NCBI RefSeq assembly: GCF_036248255.1 | Contig: NZ_CP109178.1 | Coordinates: forward strand, 6,448,001-6,512,000 | Length of the DNA: 64,000 bases | DNA from: Streptomyces sp. NBC_01717 | GTDB lineage: Bacteria > Actinomycetota > Actinomycetes > Streptomycetales > Streptomycetaceae | Direction of reading: 5' to 3' | Shown here: one piece after another, positions 17,427-64,000 of the stretch | Layout: the number at the start of each line of letters is the position of its first letter | Numbering within the stretch: position 1 is the first letter of the stretch | Notes under the pieces: generated by a model | The model's input: only the letters and a program-made list of their open reading frames with translations | What the model was told of the DNA's origin: nothing | Databases searched by the model: none | Program-made: the position numbers and the translations under genes

Positions 17427-20156
<2,730 letters not shown>

Positions 20157-27098: not shown

Positions 27099-28136
27099 TC
27101 ACACCGCGATGTACGTCACCGGATCGCTCCCTGTCATCGCCTCCGCGCGCCCCAGCTTCACCAGTCGGCGGACGTGGGCCTCGGCCTCCGAGACCGCAAT
27201 GTTCCGTGAGCCGTGCGGGATCTGTTCCCACGGCCGGTTCCACTCCATCCGCTCGGCCAGCTGCCACGGCGTGAGCGGGGTGGCGAGCAGCGCGAGCAGG
27301 CCGGTCAGCCGCTCCTCGTGGTGGTCGAGGAGTTCCTGTACGCGCCGGGCCGCGTCCGGGAACGCGTGCTGGTGGGCGGGCAGCACCTCGGCGACGCCCA
27401 GCCGGCCGATGCGCTCCAGCGAGTCGAGGTAGTCGCCCAGTGGGTCGGTGGCCGTCGCGTCGTCCGGGTCCTCGTACAGCCCGATGTGCGGACTGATCCC
27501 GGGCAGCAGATGGTCGCCGGAGAAGAGCCGGCCGCGGCCGGGCAGGTTCGCCGGGTGGTCCTCCTCCAGATGCAGGCAGACATGGCCGGGGGTGTGGCCC
27601 GGCGTCCAGACCGCGCGGAGCCGGCGGCCCGCCAGGTCGAGCAGCTCGCCGGGGACGATCTCGCGGTCCGGGAGGGCGGCGCGAAGGCCGGGCAGGGTGC
27701 GCATCCGGCCGGTGGCGCGGGCGGCGCGCAGTGGGGCGAGGTGGTCCTCGGGGGCGCCGACCGCGGTGAGTTTCGCCGCCAGGTAGGCCAGCCAGGTGCC
27801 CGGTTCGGACTCGCGGGTGCGGCGCACGATCGCGGTGTCCGCGGCGTGCATCGCGATCCAGGCCCCGGATGATTCGCGGACCTGGCCGGACAGGCCGTGG
27901 TGGTCGGGGTGGTGGTGGGTGATGACCACGCCATGGATGTCGGTGATGCCGACTCCGATGGCGGTGAGGCCCGCGACCAGGGTGTCCCAGGCCTCCGGGT
28001 CGTCCCAGCCGGTGTCGATCAGGACCGGGCCGCGGCCGGTGTCAAGGACGTGAACCAGGGTGTGGCCGAGCGGGTTGTCCGGGATGGGGACCTTGATGGA
28101 CCACACGCCGCCGCCGTGCTCGGTCACCTGTGTCAT
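27099..28136 (-). CDS. Metallo-beta-lactamase-fold hydrolase
   Basis: A 345-aa MBL-fold enzyme. The metal-binding loop is ITHHHPDHHG (about 73-82, HxHxDH motif). Downstream ligands are the His in TPGHTPGH (about 176) and the Asp in LFSGDHLL. A C-terminal helical extension (about 250-340, EWNRPWEQIPHGSRNIAVSEAEAHVRRL) resembles the winged LACTB2/nuclease-like tail. Thioesterase, lactonase or RNase roles are all possible. It diverges from the aldehyde dehydrogenase gene across a promoter that holds a KstR-like box. Confidence 0.85.
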   Translation of the reverse strand: MTQVTEHGGGVWSIKVPIPDNPLGHTLVHVLDTGRGPVLIDTGWDDPEAWDTLVAGLTAIGVGITDIHGVVITHHHPDHHGLSGQVRESSGAWIAMHAADTAIVRRTRESEPGTWLAYLAAKLTAVGAPEDHLAPLRAARATGRMRTLPGLRAALPDREIVPGELLDLAGRRLRAVWTPGHTPGHVCLHLEEDHPANLPGRGRLFSGDHLLPGISPHIGLYEDPDDATATDPLGDYLDSLERIGRLGVAEVLPAHQHAFPDAARRVQELLDHHEERLTGLLALLATPLTPWQLAERMEWNRPWEQIPHGSRNIAVSEAEAHVRRLVKLGRAEAMTGSDPVTYIAV

Positions 28137-28192: not shown

Positions 28193-28206
28193 GAGAACTC
28201 GTTCCA
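28193..28206. promoter_or_regulatory. KstR-like box (one mismatch)
   Basis: GAGAACTCGTTCCA, read on the other strand TGGAACGAGTTCTC, fits TnnAACnnGTTnnA at 7 of 8 fixed positions. It lies inside a longer dyad (AACGAG-AA-CTCGTT). It sits 57 bases before the metallo-hydrolase start and 150 before the aldehyde dehydrogenase start. Confidence 0.45.
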
Positions 28207-42277: not shown

Positions 42278-42889
42278 TTAGGACGCTTCCGGGGGTGCCG
42301 TCACGTCGATCAGCCGGCACACCGTCTCGATGTCTATCTTCACCTGGGCGATCGACGCCCGTCCCGACAGCCAGGTGATCAGCGCCGAGTGCCAGGTGTG
42401 CTCGATGACCCGGACCGCGGAGAGCTGCTCGGGCGTCGGGTGCTCCAGCCCCATCGAGTCCAGGATGATCGCCGTCGTGAGCCGCGAGACGGTGTCCACC
42501 TCGGGGCTCACGCTGCGGTCCGCGAAGGTCAGCGCCCGCACCATCGCGTCCGCCAGATGCGGTTCGCGCTGCAGCGCGCGGAACGCCCGCATCAGTGTGT
42601 CGGCGACCCGCTGGGCCGCGTCGTCCCCGGCCGGAGGCCGTTTGCGCAGCGTCCCGTGCATGTGCTGGAGCTGGTCCTGCATGGTGGCGACCAGCAGATG
42701 GATCTTGGACGGGAAGTACCGGTACAGCGTGCCCAGGGCGACCCCGGCGGCCTCCGCCACCTCGCGCATCTGCACCGCCTCGAACCCGCCCCTGCTGGCG
42801 AGCTGGGCGCTGGCGTGCAGGATGCGGCGGCGGCGGGCCTCCTGCCGTTCCGTCAGGGGCGGCGATGCCGGCTTGGCTTCCGCTGTCAT
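42278..42889 (-). CDS. kstR: KstR-like TetR-family repressor
   Basis: A 203-aa TetR regulator. The helix-turn-helix region (about 37-62) reads EAVQMREVAEAAGVALGTLY followed by RYFPSK, almost the same as mycobacterial KstR (EAVQMRAVADRADVAVGTLY, as I recall it). The ligand domain also matches at FADRSVSPEVDTV and WHSALITWLSGRAS. KstR represses cholesterol catabolism genes and responds to 3-oxo-cholestenoyl-CoA. It is divergent from a glycosyltransferase gene, with an exact KstR box 160 bases upstream of the ATG, suggesting autoregulation. The operators at 18.8, 28.2, 54.3 and 63.5 kb are its likely targets. The orthology call is from memory, not alignment. Confidence 0.75.
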   Translation of the reverse strand: MTAEAKPASPPLTERQEARRRRILHASAQLASRGGFEAVQMREVAEAAGVALGTLYRYFPSKIHLLVATMQDQLQHMHGTLRKRPPAGDDAAQRVADTLMRAFRALQREPHLADAMVRALTFADRSVSPEVDTVSRLTTAIILDSMGLEHPTPEQLSAVRVIEHTWHSALITWLSGRASIAQVKIDIETVCRLIDVTAPPEAS

Positions 42890-43049
42890 GTGTCCCCATC
42901 CATGGCTTCTGTCCGCAACCGGAGGAGGCGCGTGGGCTCCCGGCGGCGCACAGCATGCCAGGGTGCCGGTCGTGGCGCGAATCACCTGATCCGGCCGTTG
43001 CGCCGACGCTACCTGCCGGTAGATTCGTAGCTCATTGAACGATCCAGTC

Positions 43050-43063
43050 TGAAACTTGTTCTA
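43050..43063. promoter_or_regulatory. KstR box (exact match)
   Basis: TGAAACTTGTTCTA fits TnnAACnnGTTnnA at all 8 fixed positions. It lies between the kstR-like gene and the divergent glycosyltransferase gene, so it may control either or both. Confidence 0.65.
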
Positions 43064-43117
43064 GATTAGCGTGAGCGGTTACGCTCCGGCGAACACGCAG
43101 TGAGAAGGGGGCCGAGT

Positions 43118-44452
43118 GTGACCGCTGAGGCCATAGAGACGGGCCCCCGCACGGGCAGTGACACGTCGGCCGCCGCCGTCGGCGGGCGACCGTTGCGCAT
43201 CGCACTCCTCACCTACAAGGGCAACCCCTTCTGCGGCGGCCAGGGTGTCTACGTACGCCATCTCGGTCGCGAGCTCGCCCGCCTTGGCCACAGCGTCGAA
43301 GTGATCGGCGCCCAGCCCTATCCTGTGCTCGACGAGGGCGTCCCGCTCACCGAGTTGCCGAGCCTGGACCTCTACCGCCAGCCCGACCCGTTCCGCACCC
43401 CGAAGCGCGGCGAGTACCGGGACTGGATCGACGCCGCCGAGGTCGCCACCATGTGGACCGGCGGCTTCCCGGAACCGCTCACCTTCAGCCTGCGTGCCCG
43501 CCGCCATCTCGCCGCCCGTCGCGGCCAGTTCGACGTCATCCACGACAACCAGACCCTCGGGTACGGGCTGTTGGCGGACCTCGGTGCCCCGCTCGTCACC
43601 ACCATCCACCACCCCATCACCGTCGACCGGCAGCTGGAGCTGGACGCCGCCGGCAGCCGTCGCCGCCGCGCCTCCGTACGCCGCTGGTACGCCTTCACCC
43701 GCATGCAGAAGCGGGTGGCACGCCGGCTGCCGTCGGTGCTCACCGTCTCCGGCTCCTCCAAGCAGGAGATCGTCGACCATCTCGGCGTGGGGCAGGACCG
43801 GATCCATGTCGTGCACATCGGCGCGGACACCGACCTGTGGTCGCCCGACCCGTCGGTCGCCGAGGTGCCCGGCCGGATCGTCACCACCTCCAGCGCCGAC
43901 GTCCCGCTGAAGGGCCTTGTCCACCTCGTCGAGGCGCTCGCCAAACTCCGTACCGAGAACCCACAGGCGCACCTCGTGGTCGTCGGCAAGCGGGCCGAGG
44001 ACGGACCCGTCGCGCACGCCATCGAGCGGTACGGACTCCAGGACGCCGTCCGGTTCGTCAAGGGCATCAGCGACGCCGAACTCGTCGACCTGGTGCGCAG
44101 CGCCGAGGTCGCCTGCGTCCCCTCGCTGTACGAAGGGTTCTCGCTGCCCGCCGCCGAGGCCATGGCCACCGGCACCCCGCTCGTCGCGACCACCGGCGGG
44201 GCGATCCCCGAGGTCGCGGGTCCGGACGGCGAGACCTGTCTGGCCGTGCGGCCCGCCGACGCCGGGGCCCTGGCCGCCGCGCTCGCCCGGCTGCTCGGCG
44301 ACCCGGAACTGCGGGCCCGGCTCGGCGCCGCGGGCCGCGCCCGGGTGCTGGCCCGGTTCACCTGGAAGCAGGCGGCCATCGGCACCGCGGAGCTCTACCG
44401 GCAGGCGATCGCAGCCCGCGCCGTCACCACGCAACCCGGCGGCCGACGGTGA
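43118..44452 (+). CDS. GT4-type glycosyltransferase
   Basis: A 444-aa GT-B retaining glycosyltransferase. Features: N-terminal GNPFCGGQGVYVRHLGRELARLG, C-terminal GT4 nucleotide-sugar motif with ADVPLKGLVHLVEAL and the E-x7-E motif YEGFSLPAAEAMATG. It contains DVIHDNQTLGYGLL, frequent in mycothiol- or lipid-type GT4 enzymes. The GTG at 43118 is chosen for the AGAAGGGGG just upstream. It heads an operon with a SAM methyltransferase and an alpha-toroid protein whose role is unknown. Confidence 0.85.
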   Translation: MTAEAIETGPRTGSDTSAAAVGGRPLRIALLTYKGNPFCGGQGVYVRHLGRELARLGHSVEVIGAQPYPVLDEGVPLTELPSLDLYRQPDPFRTPKRGEYRDWIDAAEVATMWTGGFPEPLTFSLRARRHLAARRGQFDVIHDNQTLGYGLLADLGAPLVTTIHHPITVDRQLELDAAGSRRRRASVRRWYAFTRMQKRVARRLPSVLTVSGSSKQEIVDHLGVGQDRIHVVHIGADTDLWSPDPSVAEVPGRIVTTSSADVPLKGLVHLVEALAKLRTENPQAHLVVVGKRAEDGPVAHAIERYGLQDAVRFVKGISDAELVDLVRSAEVACVPSLYEGFSLPAAEAMATGTPLVATTGGAIPEVAGPDGETCLAVRPADAGALAAALARLLGDPELRARLGAAGRARVLARFTWKQAAIGTAELYRQAIAARAVTTQPGGRR

Positions 44453-44514
44453 CCCCGCAGCCCGCCCCCGCTGTCCCCGCCCCCTGAACCCCTCGACCGC
44501 GAAAGCAGGCACTT

Positions 44515-45288
44515 GTGCTGACCGTGGACTTCACCCGCTTCCCGCTCGCCGCAGGCGACCGAGTGCTCGACCTGGGCTGCGGCGCCGGACGCCACGCCTT
44601 CGAGTGCTACCGGCGCGGCGCCCAGGTCGTGGCACTCGACCGGAACGGCGAGGAGATCCGCGAGGTCGCGAAGTGGTTCGCGGCGATGAAGGAGGCCGGA
44701 GAGGCCCCCGCGGGCGCCACCGCCACCGCGATGGAGGGCGACGCGCTCAACCTGCCGTTCCCCGACGAGTCCTTCGACGTCGTCATCATCTCCGAGGTGA
44801 TGGAGCACATCCCCGACGACAAGGGCGTGCTCGCGGAGATGGTCCGGGTCCTCAAGCCGGGCGGCAGGATCGCGATCACCGTGCCGCGGTACGGCCCCGA
44901 GAAGGTCTGCTGGACGCTCTCCGACGCGTACCACGAGGTCGAGGGCGGCCACATCCGCATCTACAGGGCCGACGAGCTCCTCGGCAAGATCCGCGGCGCC
45001 GGCCTCAAGCCGTACGGCACCCACCACGCGCACGCGCTGCACTCCCCGTACTGGTGGCTCAAGTGCGCATTCGGAGTCGGCCGCGACGGCAAGGACGCAG
45101 CGCTGCCGGTCCGTGCGTACCACAAGCTGCTGGTCTGGGACATCATGAAGAAGCCCGCCGTCACCCGGGTCGCCGAGCAGCTGCTCAACCCGGTCGTCGG
45201 CAAGAGCTTCGTCGCGTACGCCACCAAGCCGCACCTGCCCAAGGCCGCTGCGGCTGCCGCGAATGACCTTTCGAAGGCCGAGGCGTGA
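44515..45288 (+). CDS. SAM-dependent methyltransferase
   Basis: A 257-aa class I methyltransferase (Methyltransf_11 type). SAM motif I DLGCGAGRHAFE (about 19-30), acidic strand VVALDR, motif II/III EGDALNLPFPDESFDVVIISEVMEHI. A long C-terminal part with WWLKCAFGVGRDGK suggests a hydrophobic acceptor. GTG start 62 bases after the glycosyltransferase; stop overlaps the next ATG by 4 bases. Substrate unknown. Confidence 0.85.
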   Translation: MLTVDFTRFPLAAGDRVLDLGCGAGRHAFECYRRGAQVVALDRNGEEIREVAKWFAAMKEAGEAPAGATATAMEGDALNLPFPDESFDVVIISEVMEHIPDDKGVLAEMVRVLKPGGRIAITVPRYGPEKVCWTLSDAYHEVEGGHIRIYRADELLGKIRGAGLKPYGTHHAHALHSPYWWLKCAFGVGRDGKDAALPVRAYHKLLVWDIMKKPAVTRVAEQLLNPVVGKSFVAYATKPHLPKAAAAAANDLSKAEA

Positions 45289-46364
45289 CCACTCCCGAGC
45301 AGACCGAACACCTCGTGCTGCCCGGAGTGCTCACCGCGGAGCAGGCGACGGAGACCGTCGCCGCGCTGCTCGCCGTCCAGCGCGAGGACGGTGCGCTGCC
45401 CTGGTTCCGAGGCCACCACCTCGACCCGTGGGACCACACCGAGGCCGCCATGGCCCTCGACGCCGCGGGAGAGCACGCCGCCGCGGAACGCGCGTACGAG
45501 TGGCTGGCCCGGCACCAGAACAAGGACGGCTCCTGGTACGCCGCCTACCACGACGGCGACCCGGACCGGCCGACCGACCGGGGCCTGGAGTCCAACTTCT
45601 GCGCGTACGTGGCCGTCGGCGTCTGGCACCACTACCTCGCCACCGGCGACGACGGGTTCATCGACCGGATGTGGCCGACCGTGTACGCGGCCGTCGAATT
45701 CGTCCTGCGGCTCCAGCAGCCCGGCGGCCAGATCGGCTGGAAGCGCGAACCCGACGGCACCCCCGTCGACGACGCACTGCTGACCGGCAGCTCCTCCATC
45801 CACCAGGCACTGCGCTGCGCACTCGCCATCGCCGAGCAGCGCGAGGAGCCGCAGCCGGACTGGGAGCTGGCGACCGGCGCGCTCGCGCACGCGATCCGCA
45901 GCCACCCCGAACGCTTCCTCGACAAGAGCCGCTACTCGATGGACTGGTACTACCCGGTCCTCGGCGGCGCGCTCACCGGAGCGGCCGCCAAGGAGCGGAT
46001 GGAGGAAGCCTGGGACCGTTTCGTCGTCCCCGGCCTCGGGGTGCGCTGCGTGCTGCCCAACCCTTGGGTGACGGGCGGCGAAAGCTGCGAACTCGCCCTG
46101 GCCCTCTGGGTGATGGGGGAGTCCGACCGGGCCCTGGAGATCCTCCAGTCCATCCAGCATCTGCGCGCCGAGGGCGGCATGTACTGGACGGGGTACGTCT
46201 TCGAGGGCAACCGGGCGTTCTGGCCGGAGGAACTCACCACCTGGACCGCCGGATCGCTGCTGCTCGCCGTGGCCGCCCTGGGGGGCGACGAGGCGACCGT
46301 CGCGGTCTTCGGCGGCGAACGGCTGCCGACGGGCCTGGAGCCGGACTGCTGCGCCGCCCCCTAG
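45285..46364 (+). CDS. Alpha-toroid (prenyltransferase-repeat) protein
   Basis: A 359-aa soluble protein of the six-hairpin/squalene-cyclase-like class. It shows a repeated W-rich pattern (LPWFRGHHLDPWDHTEAAMALDAA, YEWLARHQNKDGSWY, GGMYWTGYVFEGNRAFWPEE). It has no DXDD motif and may act as a glycoside hydrolase-like or prenyl-binding toroid. Overlap with the methyltransferase gene (GTGA) and the operon with GT4 suggest tailoring of a lipid-linked or secondary sugar metabolite. Confidence 0.75.
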   Translation: MTTPEQTEHLVLPGVLTAEQATETVAALLAVQREDGALPWFRGHHLDPWDHTEAAMALDAAGEHAAAERAYEWLARHQNKDGSWYAAYHDGDPDRPTDRGLESNFCAYVAVGVWHHYLATGDDGFIDRMWPTVYAAVEFVLRLQQPGGQIGWKREPDGTPVDDALLTGSSSIHQALRCALAIAEQREEPQPDWELATGALAHAIRSHPERFLDKSRYSMDWYYPVLGGALTGAAAKERMEEAWDRFVVPGLGVRCVLPNPWVTGGESCELALALWVMGESDRALEILQSIQHLRAEGGMYWTGYVFEGNRAFWPEELTTWTAGSLLLAVAALGGDEATVAVFGGERLPTGLEPDCCAAP

Positions 46365-54339: not shown

Positions 54340-54353
54340 TGGAACGTGTTCTA
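54340..54353. promoter_or_regulatory. KstR box (exact match)
   Basis: TGGAACGTGTTCTA matches TnnAACnnGTTnnA at all 8 fixed positions. It ends 43 bases before the ATG of the FadE34-like gene, at the expected promoter position; it also supports starting that gene at 54397 rather than at 54319. Confidence 0.7.
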
Positions 54354-56768: not shown

Positions 56769-57962
56769 ATGAAGGCCTACATCGTCGGTGTCGGGATGAC
56801 GAAGTTCGAGAAGCCCGAGACGCGTGACTGGCAGTACTGGGACATGGCGAGGGAGGCCGGGAGCGCGGCGCTCGCCGACGCCGGGGTCCGCTACGAACAG
56901 GTGCAGCAGGTCCCCGTCGGCTACTGCTTCCAGGCCTCCACGGCCGGTCAGCGCGCCGCGTACGAACTCGGACTGACCGGCGTACCCGTCTACAACGTCA
57001 ACAACAACTGTGCGACCGGCTCCACCGCGCTGATGATGGCCCGCCAGTTCGTCGAGGGCGGCATCGGCGACTGCGTGCTCGCGCTCGGATTCGAGAAGAT
57101 GGCGCGCGGGGCACTGGGCGGCGGCGGATCCGACGGCGGCGCCGACTTCCGGACGTCGCCCGTTGCCCGGCACTACGGGATCATGGCCGCCGCCCACGGC
57201 TTCGAGATGTCCCCGCCCACCGCCCAGATCTTCGGCAACGCGGCCCGCGAACACATGGACCGGTACGGGACGACCGAGGCGCAGCTCGCGGCGGTCGGCG
57301 CCAAGAACCACCGGCACTCGGTGAACAATCCGTACGCCCAGTTCCAGGACGCGTACACGGTCGACGAGATCCTCGCCGCCCGGACCATCCACCGCCCGCT
57401 GACCAAGCTCCAGTGCTCGCCCACCTCCGACGGAGCGGCCGCCGCCGTCGTCGTATCGGAACGGTTCGTCGAGAGCCACGGGCTGGGCGACCGGGCCGTC
57501 GAGATCGTCGCCCAGGCCATGACGACCGACACCGGCGAGTCGTTCGCCTCCGGCACCTGCATCGACGCCGTCGGCCCGCCCATGTCCCGGGCCGCCGCCC
57601 AGCAGGTGTACGACACCTCGGGGCTCTCGGCCGCGGACCTCGACGTCATCGAGCTGCACGACTGCTTCTCCATCAACGAACTCCTGACCTACGAGGCGCT
57701 CGGCCTGTGCGGCGAGGGCGAGTCCGGCAAGCTCGTCGAGTCCGGAGCCACCACCTACGGCGGCCGCTGGGTCGTCAACCCGTCCGGCGGGCTGATCTCC
57801 AAGGGTCACCCGCTCGGCGCCACCGGCATCGCCCAGGCCGCCGAACTCACCTGGCAGCTGCGCGGTGAGGCGGGCCCCCGGCAGGTCGCCGATGCCCGGG
57901 TCGGACTCGCCCACAACATCGGGCTCGGCGGCGCGGCGGTGGTCACGCTGCTCCGTCGCTAA
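56769..57962 (+). CDS. SCPx-type thiolase (lipid-transfer protein)
   Basis: A 397-aa thiolase of the SCP-x/lipid-transfer group. Nucleophile Cys81 in NNNCATGSTA, His-Asp-Cys in ELHDCFSINE replacing the NEAF motif of classic thiolases, and SKGHPLGATGIA. Such enzymes cleave branched-chain 3-ketoacyl-CoAs, as in peroxisomal sterol side-chain shortening; mycobacterial homologues are annotated as Ltp proteins. It lacks the SCP2 domain. Its stop codon lies at the edge of a MITE-like element. Confidence 0.85.
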   Translation: MKAYIVGVGMTKFEKPETRDWQYWDMAREAGSAALADAGVRYEQVQQVPVGYCFQASTAGQRAAYELGLTGVPVYNVNNNCATGSTALMMARQFVEGGIGDCVLALGFEKMARGALGGGGSDGGADFRTSPVARHYGIMAAAHGFEMSPPTAQIFGNAAREHMDRYGTTEAQLAAVGAKNHRHSVNNPYAQFQDAYTVDEILAARTIHRPLTKLQCSPTSDGAAAAVVVSERFVESHGLGDRAVEIVAQAMTTDTGESFASGTCIDAVGPPMSRAAAQQVYDTSGLSAADLDVIELHDCFSINELLTYEALGLCGEGESGKLVESGATTYGGRWVVNPSGGLISKGHPLGATGIAQAAELTWQLRGEAGPRQVADARVGLAHNIGLGGAAVVTLLRR

Positions 57963-63472: not shown

Positions 63473-63486
63473 TAGAACGCGTTCTA
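63473..63486. promoter_or_regulatory. KstR box (perfect palindrome)
   Basis: TAGAACGCGTTCTA matches TnnAACnnGTTnnA exactly and extends to a perfect 16-bp palindrome (63472-63487). It lies 97 bases before the hydratase ATG, making it the strongest box in the window. Confidence 0.75.
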
Positions 63487-63582: not shown

Positions 63583-64000
63583 ATGCCCATTGATGCCGCA
63601 AAGGCGGTCGCCGCCGAACCCCGGACCGCCGAGATCTCCTGGGACCACAAGGACGTCCAGCTCTACCACCTGGGACTCGGTGCGGGCGCCCCCGCCACCG
63701 ACCCCGCCGAACTTCGCTACACCCTCGAATCCCGGCTCCATGTCCTGCCCAGCTTCGCCACCGTCGCGGGTGCGGGCACAGGCGTCGTCGGCGGGCTGTC
63801 CTCGCCCGGGATCGACGTCGACCTGGCCGCCGTGCTCCACGGCGGCCAGGCCGTAAGGGTGCACCGGCCGATCCCGGCCGAGGGCAGGGCCGTCCAGACG
63901 TCGAAGGTCGCGGCGGTGTACGACAAGGGCAAGGCGGCCGTCCTCGTCCTGCGCACCGAGGCTGCCGATGACGAGGGCCCTCTGTGGACCAACGACGCCG
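63583..64000 (+). CDS. MaoC-type enoyl-CoA hydratase, partial (window edge)
   Basis: The first 139 residues of a hotdog-fold hydratase 2-type enzyme: opening MPIDAAKAVAAEP, then DVQLYHLGLGAGA, VLPSFATVAGAG and LHGGQAVRVHRPIPAEGRA, typical of sterol-CoA or branched-chain 2-enoyl-CoA hydratases of the mycobacterial ChsH3 group. The catalytic C-terminal half lies beyond the window. ATG 63583 has AAGGAG about 10 bases upstream. Confidence 0.8.
   Translation, partial: MPIDAAKAVAAEPRTAEISWDHKDVQLYHLGLGAGAPATDPAELRYTLESRLHVLPSFATVAGAGTGVVGGLSSPGIDVDLAAVLHGGQAVRVHRPIPAEGRAVQTSKVAAVYDKGKAAVLVLRTEAADDEGPLWTNDA

Follow-up and report, generated by a model that had tools for sequence, protein, structure and literature searches.

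KstR is the switch that controls cholesterol catabolism in mycobacteria and rhodococci. In M. tuberculosis, its box was reported in intergenic regions that include Rv3545c/Rv3546 and Rv3515c/Rv3516 (Kendall 2007, PMC1995591), and the mycobacterial repressor is released by a CoA-thioester, according to the accessible parts of two reports (PMC6678751, PMC9782250). A 2012 comparison, in which two Streptomyces were included, traced KstR back to the ancestor from which mycobacteria and Rhodococcus descend, and counted two to three paralogues in more distant organisms (PMC3388012, available sections). SCO2319 of S. coelicolor was named a "possible orthologue" of KstR with 32% identity and without synteny; the accessible text gave it no regulon, operator or neighbour function (Kendall 2007, PMC1995591). 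A search with the SCO2319 tag found no paper besides that one.

Two further lines of work bear on this locus. In the available part of Bergstrand 2016, 55 of 57 Streptomyces genomes were without a steroid pathway (PMC4810484), and CYP125A13 of S. peucetius was reported to hydroxylate cholesterol (PMC9728343, in part). On the side of the methylmannose polysaccharides (MMP), the structures 7QSG and 7QSJ correspond to ManT and MmpH, characterised as the MMP mannosyltransferase and hydrolase; the accessible text of the same study stated that S. griseus makes acetylated MMP and has a ManT homologue sharing 53% identity with its M. hassiacum counterpart (PMC9883506). That text contained none of the words KstR, operon, transcription and regulat-.

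The window analysed here is a stretch of 64,000 nucleotides (G000:C1:6448001-6512000) of the 10.2-Mb genome of Streptomyces sp. NBC_01717, which is assembled in three contigs. The sequence-only reading had described a TetR protein gene at 42278–42889 on the minus strand and the element TGAAACTTGTTCTA at 43050–43063, and both were present (Table 1). The genes on the other side of this element, which that reading had not identified, are predicted to form an MMP operon, and the box at 43050 is placed as its putative operator.

Table 1. Features of the window (positions counted from its first nucleotide).
Feature	Position	Strand	Basis
CYP125 (steroid C26/C27 monooxygenase family)	17427..18704	-	5dqn, 524 bits
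One-mismatch box between cyp125 and fadA5	18776..18789	+	pattern match
One-mismatch box TAGAACGCGTACTA, 57 bp before fadA5	18916..18929	+	pattern match
FadA5 (steroid thiolase), divergent from cyp125	18987..20156	+	4ubv, 511 bits
MBL-fold hydrolase gene	27099..28136	-	NF053820, 684 bits
KstR-type TetR repressor (predicted), 203 aa	42278..42889	-	TetR_N + TetR_C_20; NF033703, 196 bits
KstR-type box TGAAACTTGTTCTA, putative operator before ManT operon	43050..43063	+	exact match
-10-like TAGATT overlapping the box end	43062..43067	+	by eye; block conserved over 35 dereplicated loci
ManT homologue, GT4 mannosyltransferase of methylmannose polysaccharide	43100..44452	+	7qsg, 455 bits
SAM-dependent methyltransferase	44515..45288	+	Methyltransf_11; nearest solved structure distant (68 bits)
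MmpH homologue, methylmannose-polysaccharide hydrolase	45285..46364	+	7qsj, 380 bits
Exact box before FadE34-like gene	54340..54353	+	exact before 6/6 FadE34 genes found in 20 relatives
FadE34-like two-domain acyl-CoA dehydrogenase, 722 aa	54403..56571	+	Pfam
Lipid-transfer-protein/thiolase (PRK08256)	56769..57962	+	NF006102, 626 bits (cut-off 436)
Exact palindromic box TAGAACGCGTTCTA before hydratase operon	63473..63486	+	exact before 9/11 orthologues found in 20 relatives
MFE-2-type hydratase gene, start by eye, runs past the window	63583..64000	+	domain match

The earlier description of the regulator as KstR-like held in its main part. NF033703 (KstR) was the top NCBIfam model for the protein, which was the sole full-length member of the KstR family found in the genome (195.9 bits vs. 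42.9 bits for the next match) and contained both the TetR_N and TetR_C_20 domains. However, its score stayed below the 280-bit cut-off of the model. It had 78 of 182 residues in common with 3mnl, the structure of M. tuberculosis KstR; 24 of 31 residues were identical in the helix-turn-helix stretch and 41 of 126 in the remainder, the ligand domain. The top PDB match by score was 3bjb, a member of the TetR family that does not bear the name KstR (150 bits vs. 140 bits for KstR). The protein was about as close to 3bjb as to 3mnl, with overall identity to 3bjb of 82/194 (45/128 in the ligand domain). We take 3bjb to come from Rhodococcus RHA1.

Proteins of 89–100% identity were found in 80 named Streptomyces records, the closest 80 of at least 556. 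In a tree of 30 proteins the Streptomyces regulators formed their own clade, apart from the 3bjb clade; the deep forks were weak or open, and the root was unreliable because of the very long branches of the TetR outgroups. Elsewhere, NF033703 scored 330–332 bits for proteins of families f4 and f46, 258–259 for f26, 226 for f35, 211 and 153 for f18, and 142 for f17; the 3bjb-like f4 protein L210 had no match to this model at E ≤ 1e-40. In view of the score below the cut-off, the nearly equal closeness to 3bjb, the weak deep branching and the scores in the other families, the protein is assigned by sequence to the KstR subfamily and is not called KstR proper. SCO2319 is probably its orthologue.

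The genes of ManT, the methyltransferase and MmpH were all found at each of the 80 named Streptomyces loci (the closest 80 of at least 556). The run at 43100–46364 holds one methyltransferase gene, which lies between ManT and MmpH. Its third gene was originally named a terpene-cyclase-like toroid on a weak SQHop match, and this name was dropped for MmpH after the 7qsj match. The locus of S. griseus NCTC13033 (L062) had the same ManT-MT-MmpH genes and an exact box.

The position of the box was nearly fixed with respect to ManT. At these 80 closest loci, the best-matching site no more than 500 bp from kstR was exact in 78 and had one mismatch in two; in the 78 exact loci the distance from the box to the ManT start was 36 bp (60 loci), 35 bp (16) or 37 bp (2), and the distance to kstR varied from 128 to 280 bp. 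Twenty further relatives were hand-picked, so as to have contiguous assemblies and cover a range of identities, from the 186 other regulator-bearing genomes of the genus. The ManT box was exact in all 20, at 35–37 bp in 19 and at 3 bp in G058 as judged from the alignment start. After removal of near-duplicates from the closest 80, conservation over the remaining 35 loci was 0.947 in the box columns, 0.602 in the left flank and 0.762 in the right flank, the last also fairly conserved as expected of a promoter and leader. A sigma-70 scan of the ManT promoter reported nothing. At three loci (L245 and L249 of G031 and G154, and L253 of G055) the ManT box was accompanied by a second exact box some 90 bp upstream of kstR, which suggests separate autoregulation there.

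Three exact matches to TNNAACNNGTTNNA had been claimed for the window, and exactly three were found (43050, 54340 and 63473), against 0.02 expected; none of 100 shuffles reached three. The accompanying claim of three one-mismatch matches, all in promoters, did not hold. There were 11 such sites, giving 14 sites at up to one mismatch vs. 2.54 expected, and at least four of them were inside genes (19422 in fadA5, 56065 in the FadE34-like gene; 12752 in one further predicted gene and 47146 in another). Sites 18776 and 18916 lay between cyp125 and fadA5. Another one-mismatch box, GAGAACTCGTTCCA at 28193–28206, lay 57 bp upstream of the MBL-fold hydrolase gene.

In the whole genome the loose pattern TNNAACNNGTTNNA had 41 exact sites, many of them intragenic, vs. 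22 for a control read backwards. Since this was only about twice the background, the analysis was moved to a stricter half-site and to conservation. The stricter TNNAACNNGTTCTA had nine distinct genome sites (11 strand hits), of which seven lay before genes of the proposed regulon and two in coding sequence; a crude gene caller had wrongly put two of the seven inside over-long ORFs. Allowing up to two mismatches to TAGAACNNGTTCTA gave 117 sites in the genome vs. 293 for the control, below control and uninformative. Near the one-mismatch sites at 3404892, 4753250, 4992176, 7108389 and C2:459675, no sterol or MMP gene was recognised from the first residues of the predicted proteins. The TTGAACNNGTTCAA sites at G000:C1:1369921/1369966, 3919477/3919521, 5432084 and 5518320 (L007, L017, L019, L020) also fit the loose pattern, and two sets of them are tandem pairs 44–45 bp apart just before genes; they look like the motif of another regulator.

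Boxes before other lipid-catabolism genes, which the sequence-only reading had named as support, were found at cyp125/fadA5, fadD19/echA19, FadE26, FadE34, the hydratase operon and cholesterol oxidase. We take Rv3545c/Rv3546 to be cyp125/fadA5 and Rv3515c/Rv3516 to be fadD19/echA19; the divergent pairs homologous to these two were boxed in Streptomyces too. The EchA19-like gene (371 bits vs. a model cut-off of 400, and above the cut-off of the related PRK07799 model) was divergent from a PRK07798-type acyl-CoA synthetase gene, which we call FadD19-like, with an exact box between them. On the echA19 side, two lipid-transfer or thiolase-type genes came next. Exact boxes also preceded the cholesterol oxidase gene (743 bits to 1coy) and the FadE26-like gene (450 bits to 4x28_A, presumably the FadE26 chain). 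The FadE34-like gene lies about 11 kb from the regulator with its own box, and probably shares an operon with the lipid-transfer-protein/thiolase gene; its name was given for its architecture and because a homologous gene stands divergent from KstR in f4, f35 and f46 loci. Outside the window, the MFE-2-type hydratase gene was followed by a zinc alcohol dehydrogenase and an SDR, and its box was missing in two of the 11 orthologues found in the 20 relatives (G151 and G172). KshA (PF19298), which acts in ring cleavage, had no match in this genome. In addition, there was a perfect palindromic box at G000:C1:4742884 (L353:7885). The acyl-CoA dehydrogenase-type gene behind it immediately follows a PaaE-like gene (417 bits vs. 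a cut-off of 420.8), which may point to a connection with phenylacetate genes.

Boxes of up to one mismatch were sought within 300 bp upstream of three of these genes in the 30 best-scoring loci for each (of 135 CYP125, 119 cholesterol-oxidase and 133 EchA19 genomes), a choice that favours closer relatives. All 30 loci had a box in each case: none exact and 30 with one mismatch for cyp125; 15 and 15 for cholesterol oxidase, at 25–26 bp from the start in 29; 18 and 12 for echA19, at 21–24 bp from the start in 25. Equal stretches inside cyp125, cholesterol oxidase and echA19 had sites in 0, 1 and 0 of 30.

Among 199 genomes of the genus, the regulator orthologue was present in 187, including the present one. 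CYP125 was found in 135, EchA19 in 133 and both in 132; CYP125 occurred in 134 of the 187 regulator genomes vs. one of the 12 without the regulator, and 53 regulator genomes had no CYP125. Cholesterol oxidase (E ≤ 1e-150) was found in 119 genomes, in a close form of 74–100% identity in 62, the other matches being a form of 51–55%. Strong KshA matches (E ≤ 3e-85) existed in only 18 genomes, 16 of which had CYP125, and 119 genomes had CYP125 without strong KshA; the PF19298 matches in 41 of the 59 matching genomes (E 4e-28 to 9e-4) were taken as other Rieske oxygenases, judged by the score gap. Few Streptomyces seem equipped for ring cleavage by these gene contents, and most holders of CYP125 do not. 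The low number reported by Bergstrand 2016 fits a side-chain-only gene set having been passed over.

Strict-pattern hits per genome, on both strands, averaged 8.94 (control 1.94) in the 134 genomes with regulator and CYP125, 3.42 (control 1.42) in the 53 with the regulator only and 2.83 (control 0.92) in the 12 without it; the last two differed little (p 0.047 leaving out G071, in statistics that ignore relatedness). Five of the 20 relatives (G031, G052, G082, G154 and G158) kept the regulator, the box and the MMP operon, and had none of FadE34, Ltp, hydratase, SDR and ADH in the 28 kb read and neither CYP125 nor EchA19. Genome G071 (contig C64) possessed CYP125, EchA19, cholesterol oxidase and eight strict-pattern hits; no regulator was found in this genome or in about 40 kb beside its CYP125, a stretch with a short N run.

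Outside the genus, 55 genomes were hand-picked among the 144 of 394 with a regulator-like match. By coordinates, the regulator was next to ManT, in divergent orientation, in 13 of the 14 f26 genomes examined, was within 2 kb of ManT in four of eight f17 genomes, and adjoined it in none of the 21 f4 genomes having ManT (of 26 f4 genomes). Instead, in six of seven f4, f35 and f46 loci (L206, L207, L208, L209, L212 and L213) it was divergent from the FadE34 homologue beside it; the seventh, L210, carries the 3bjb-like paralogue. Family f4 was read as containing Mycobacterium since loci L212 and L213 encode KstR proteins with almost the sequence of 3mnl.

The box was examined in the 30 best-scoring of 49 outgroup genomes with ManT. 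In f17 it was exact in four of seven ManT loci, with no regulator next to ManT there; the remaining three had no box. Among ten f26 loci it was exact in one and had one mismatch in five, overlapping the aligned ManT start; it was missing in the other four, three of them beside the regulator, so that three of nine kstR-adjoining loci were without a box. None of seven f4 loci had an exact box (one had a one-mismatch site 250 bp away), and six ManT loci of other families had no box. This distribution of boxes and adjacency indicated, at the level of sequence, that putative KstR-type control of MMP genes extends over Streptomyces and parts of f17 and f26, and not over f4. A divergent KstR-like subgroup (L218 and L219 of f17; G292 and G394) stood beside ManT without the box and may read another operator.

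Three other explanations were weighed. Random hits of a loose pattern in GC-rich DNA would account for a count of 41 vs. 22 with many intragenic sites, but not for three exact sites where 0.02 were expected, nor for near-fixed positions before orthologues in most of the relatives examined; already disfavoured by the conservation of the box, this explanation has next to no probability left. It is also very unlikely that the boxes are real and bound by another regulator, or that the conserved block upstream of ManT belongs to a promoter and has nothing to do with the TetR protein. The pairing of box and TetR protein is drawn from sequence, and G071 combines box hits and sterol genes with no regulator found, which would suit such a reading. 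However, the motif equals the published KstR box in the accessible text (PMC1995591) and the helix-turn-helix is near that of KstR. The box further lies between the regulator gene and ManT, and it recurs at homologues of known KstR targets at varied distances from their starts.

More weight, although still little, was given to an ordinary sterol-catabolism KstR, with the MMP operon adjacent by history and the box at 43050 serving autoregulation of kstR alone. The boxes at sterol side-chain genes and the co-occurrence of CYP125 with the regulator agree with this proposal, as do the f4 loci, whose MMP genes lacked an exact box in seven of seven cases, and the self-repression of mycobacterial KstR (PMC1995591, in part). 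It is improbable nevertheless: the box keeps its distance to ManT (35–37 bp) and not to kstR (128–280 bp), in five of 20 relatives the regulator, box and MMP operon occur without any sterol gene tested, 53 of 187 regulator genomes are without CYP125, and at four f17 loci an exact box precedes a ManT gene with no regulator next to it.

We favoured, with good confidence, a KstR-type repressor whose constant target in Streptomyces would be the MMP operon, with the sterol side-chain genes as the variable part. A repressor dimer would occupy the boxes near start codons, and at the ManT operon the box overlaps the -10-like TAGATT, so that transcription should be blocked. In about two-thirds of the sampled species, the repressor would also guard the scattered cyp125/fadA5, fadD19/echA19/Ltp, FadE26, FadE34 and hydratase-operon genes, and in some species cholesterol oxidase as well. 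By analogy with mycobacterial KstR, a CoA-thioester would release it, presumably a steroid-CoA where sterol genes exist, and the MMP genes and the sterol side-chain genes should then rise together.

We speculated further, as a tentative idea with less than even chances, that KstR-type regulators in Streptomyces, and in parts of two other families, have the conserved job of coupling the load of acyl-CoA or steroid-CoA to the making and recycling of MMP. The polysaccharide might serve as a solubiliser or carrier of bulky CoA-thioesters, among them sterol side-chain intermediates where a strain has CYP125 and no KshA; the mycobacterial cholesterol regulon might then be one lineage's version, with the MMP genes not under it. 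If the favoured explanation is true, it would supply a regulator, a candidate class of inducer and a genetic handle for a polysaccharide with only a proposed role, and the Streptomyces genes for CYP125, cholesterol oxidase and FadE proteins, scattered as they are, would form one regulon. CYP125 alone would be poor ground for inferring full sterol degradation, given the 119 of 199 genomes that carry it without strong KshA.

The sequence-only reading had regarded a scattered KstR regulon in a streptomycete as new. The KstR homologue itself had been named as SCO2319 by Kendall 2007; the regulon and its link to MMP were not found in the literature searched. No paper joining KstR and MMP was found there (most subscription papers were outside the search), and none with both "polymethylated polysaccharide" and "repressor"; six neighbouring or related gene tags returned nothing of evident bearing by title and abstract start. 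The predicted boxes before both the MMP genes and the scattered sterol-breakdown genes suggest a link between the two that was not found in print.

Compared with known systems, the Streptomyces regulator shares with mycobacterial KstR (Rv3574 / MSMEG_6042) the TetR family, the box and a box at its own promoter, as far as the accessible text describes that regulon (Kendall 2007, PMC1995591). In contrast, its divergent partner is ManT-MT-MmpH and not fadE34, its targets are scattered and include putatively the MMP genes, KshA is lacking from this genome, and its model score is under the cut-off. The 3bjb protein and its relatives in f4, f17 and f26 belong to the same TetR subfamily at about equal identity, in a separate clade of the tree, and no exact box was found at the loci of L205, L210 and L216. 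The MMP cluster of nontuberculous mycobacteria (MeT1, MmpH, pMeT3 and ManT), in the available description, likewise unites ManT and MmpH homologues with methyltransferase in one gene run (PMC9883506), whereas the Streptomyces run has one methyltransferase instead of two and a KstR-type regulator and box in front.
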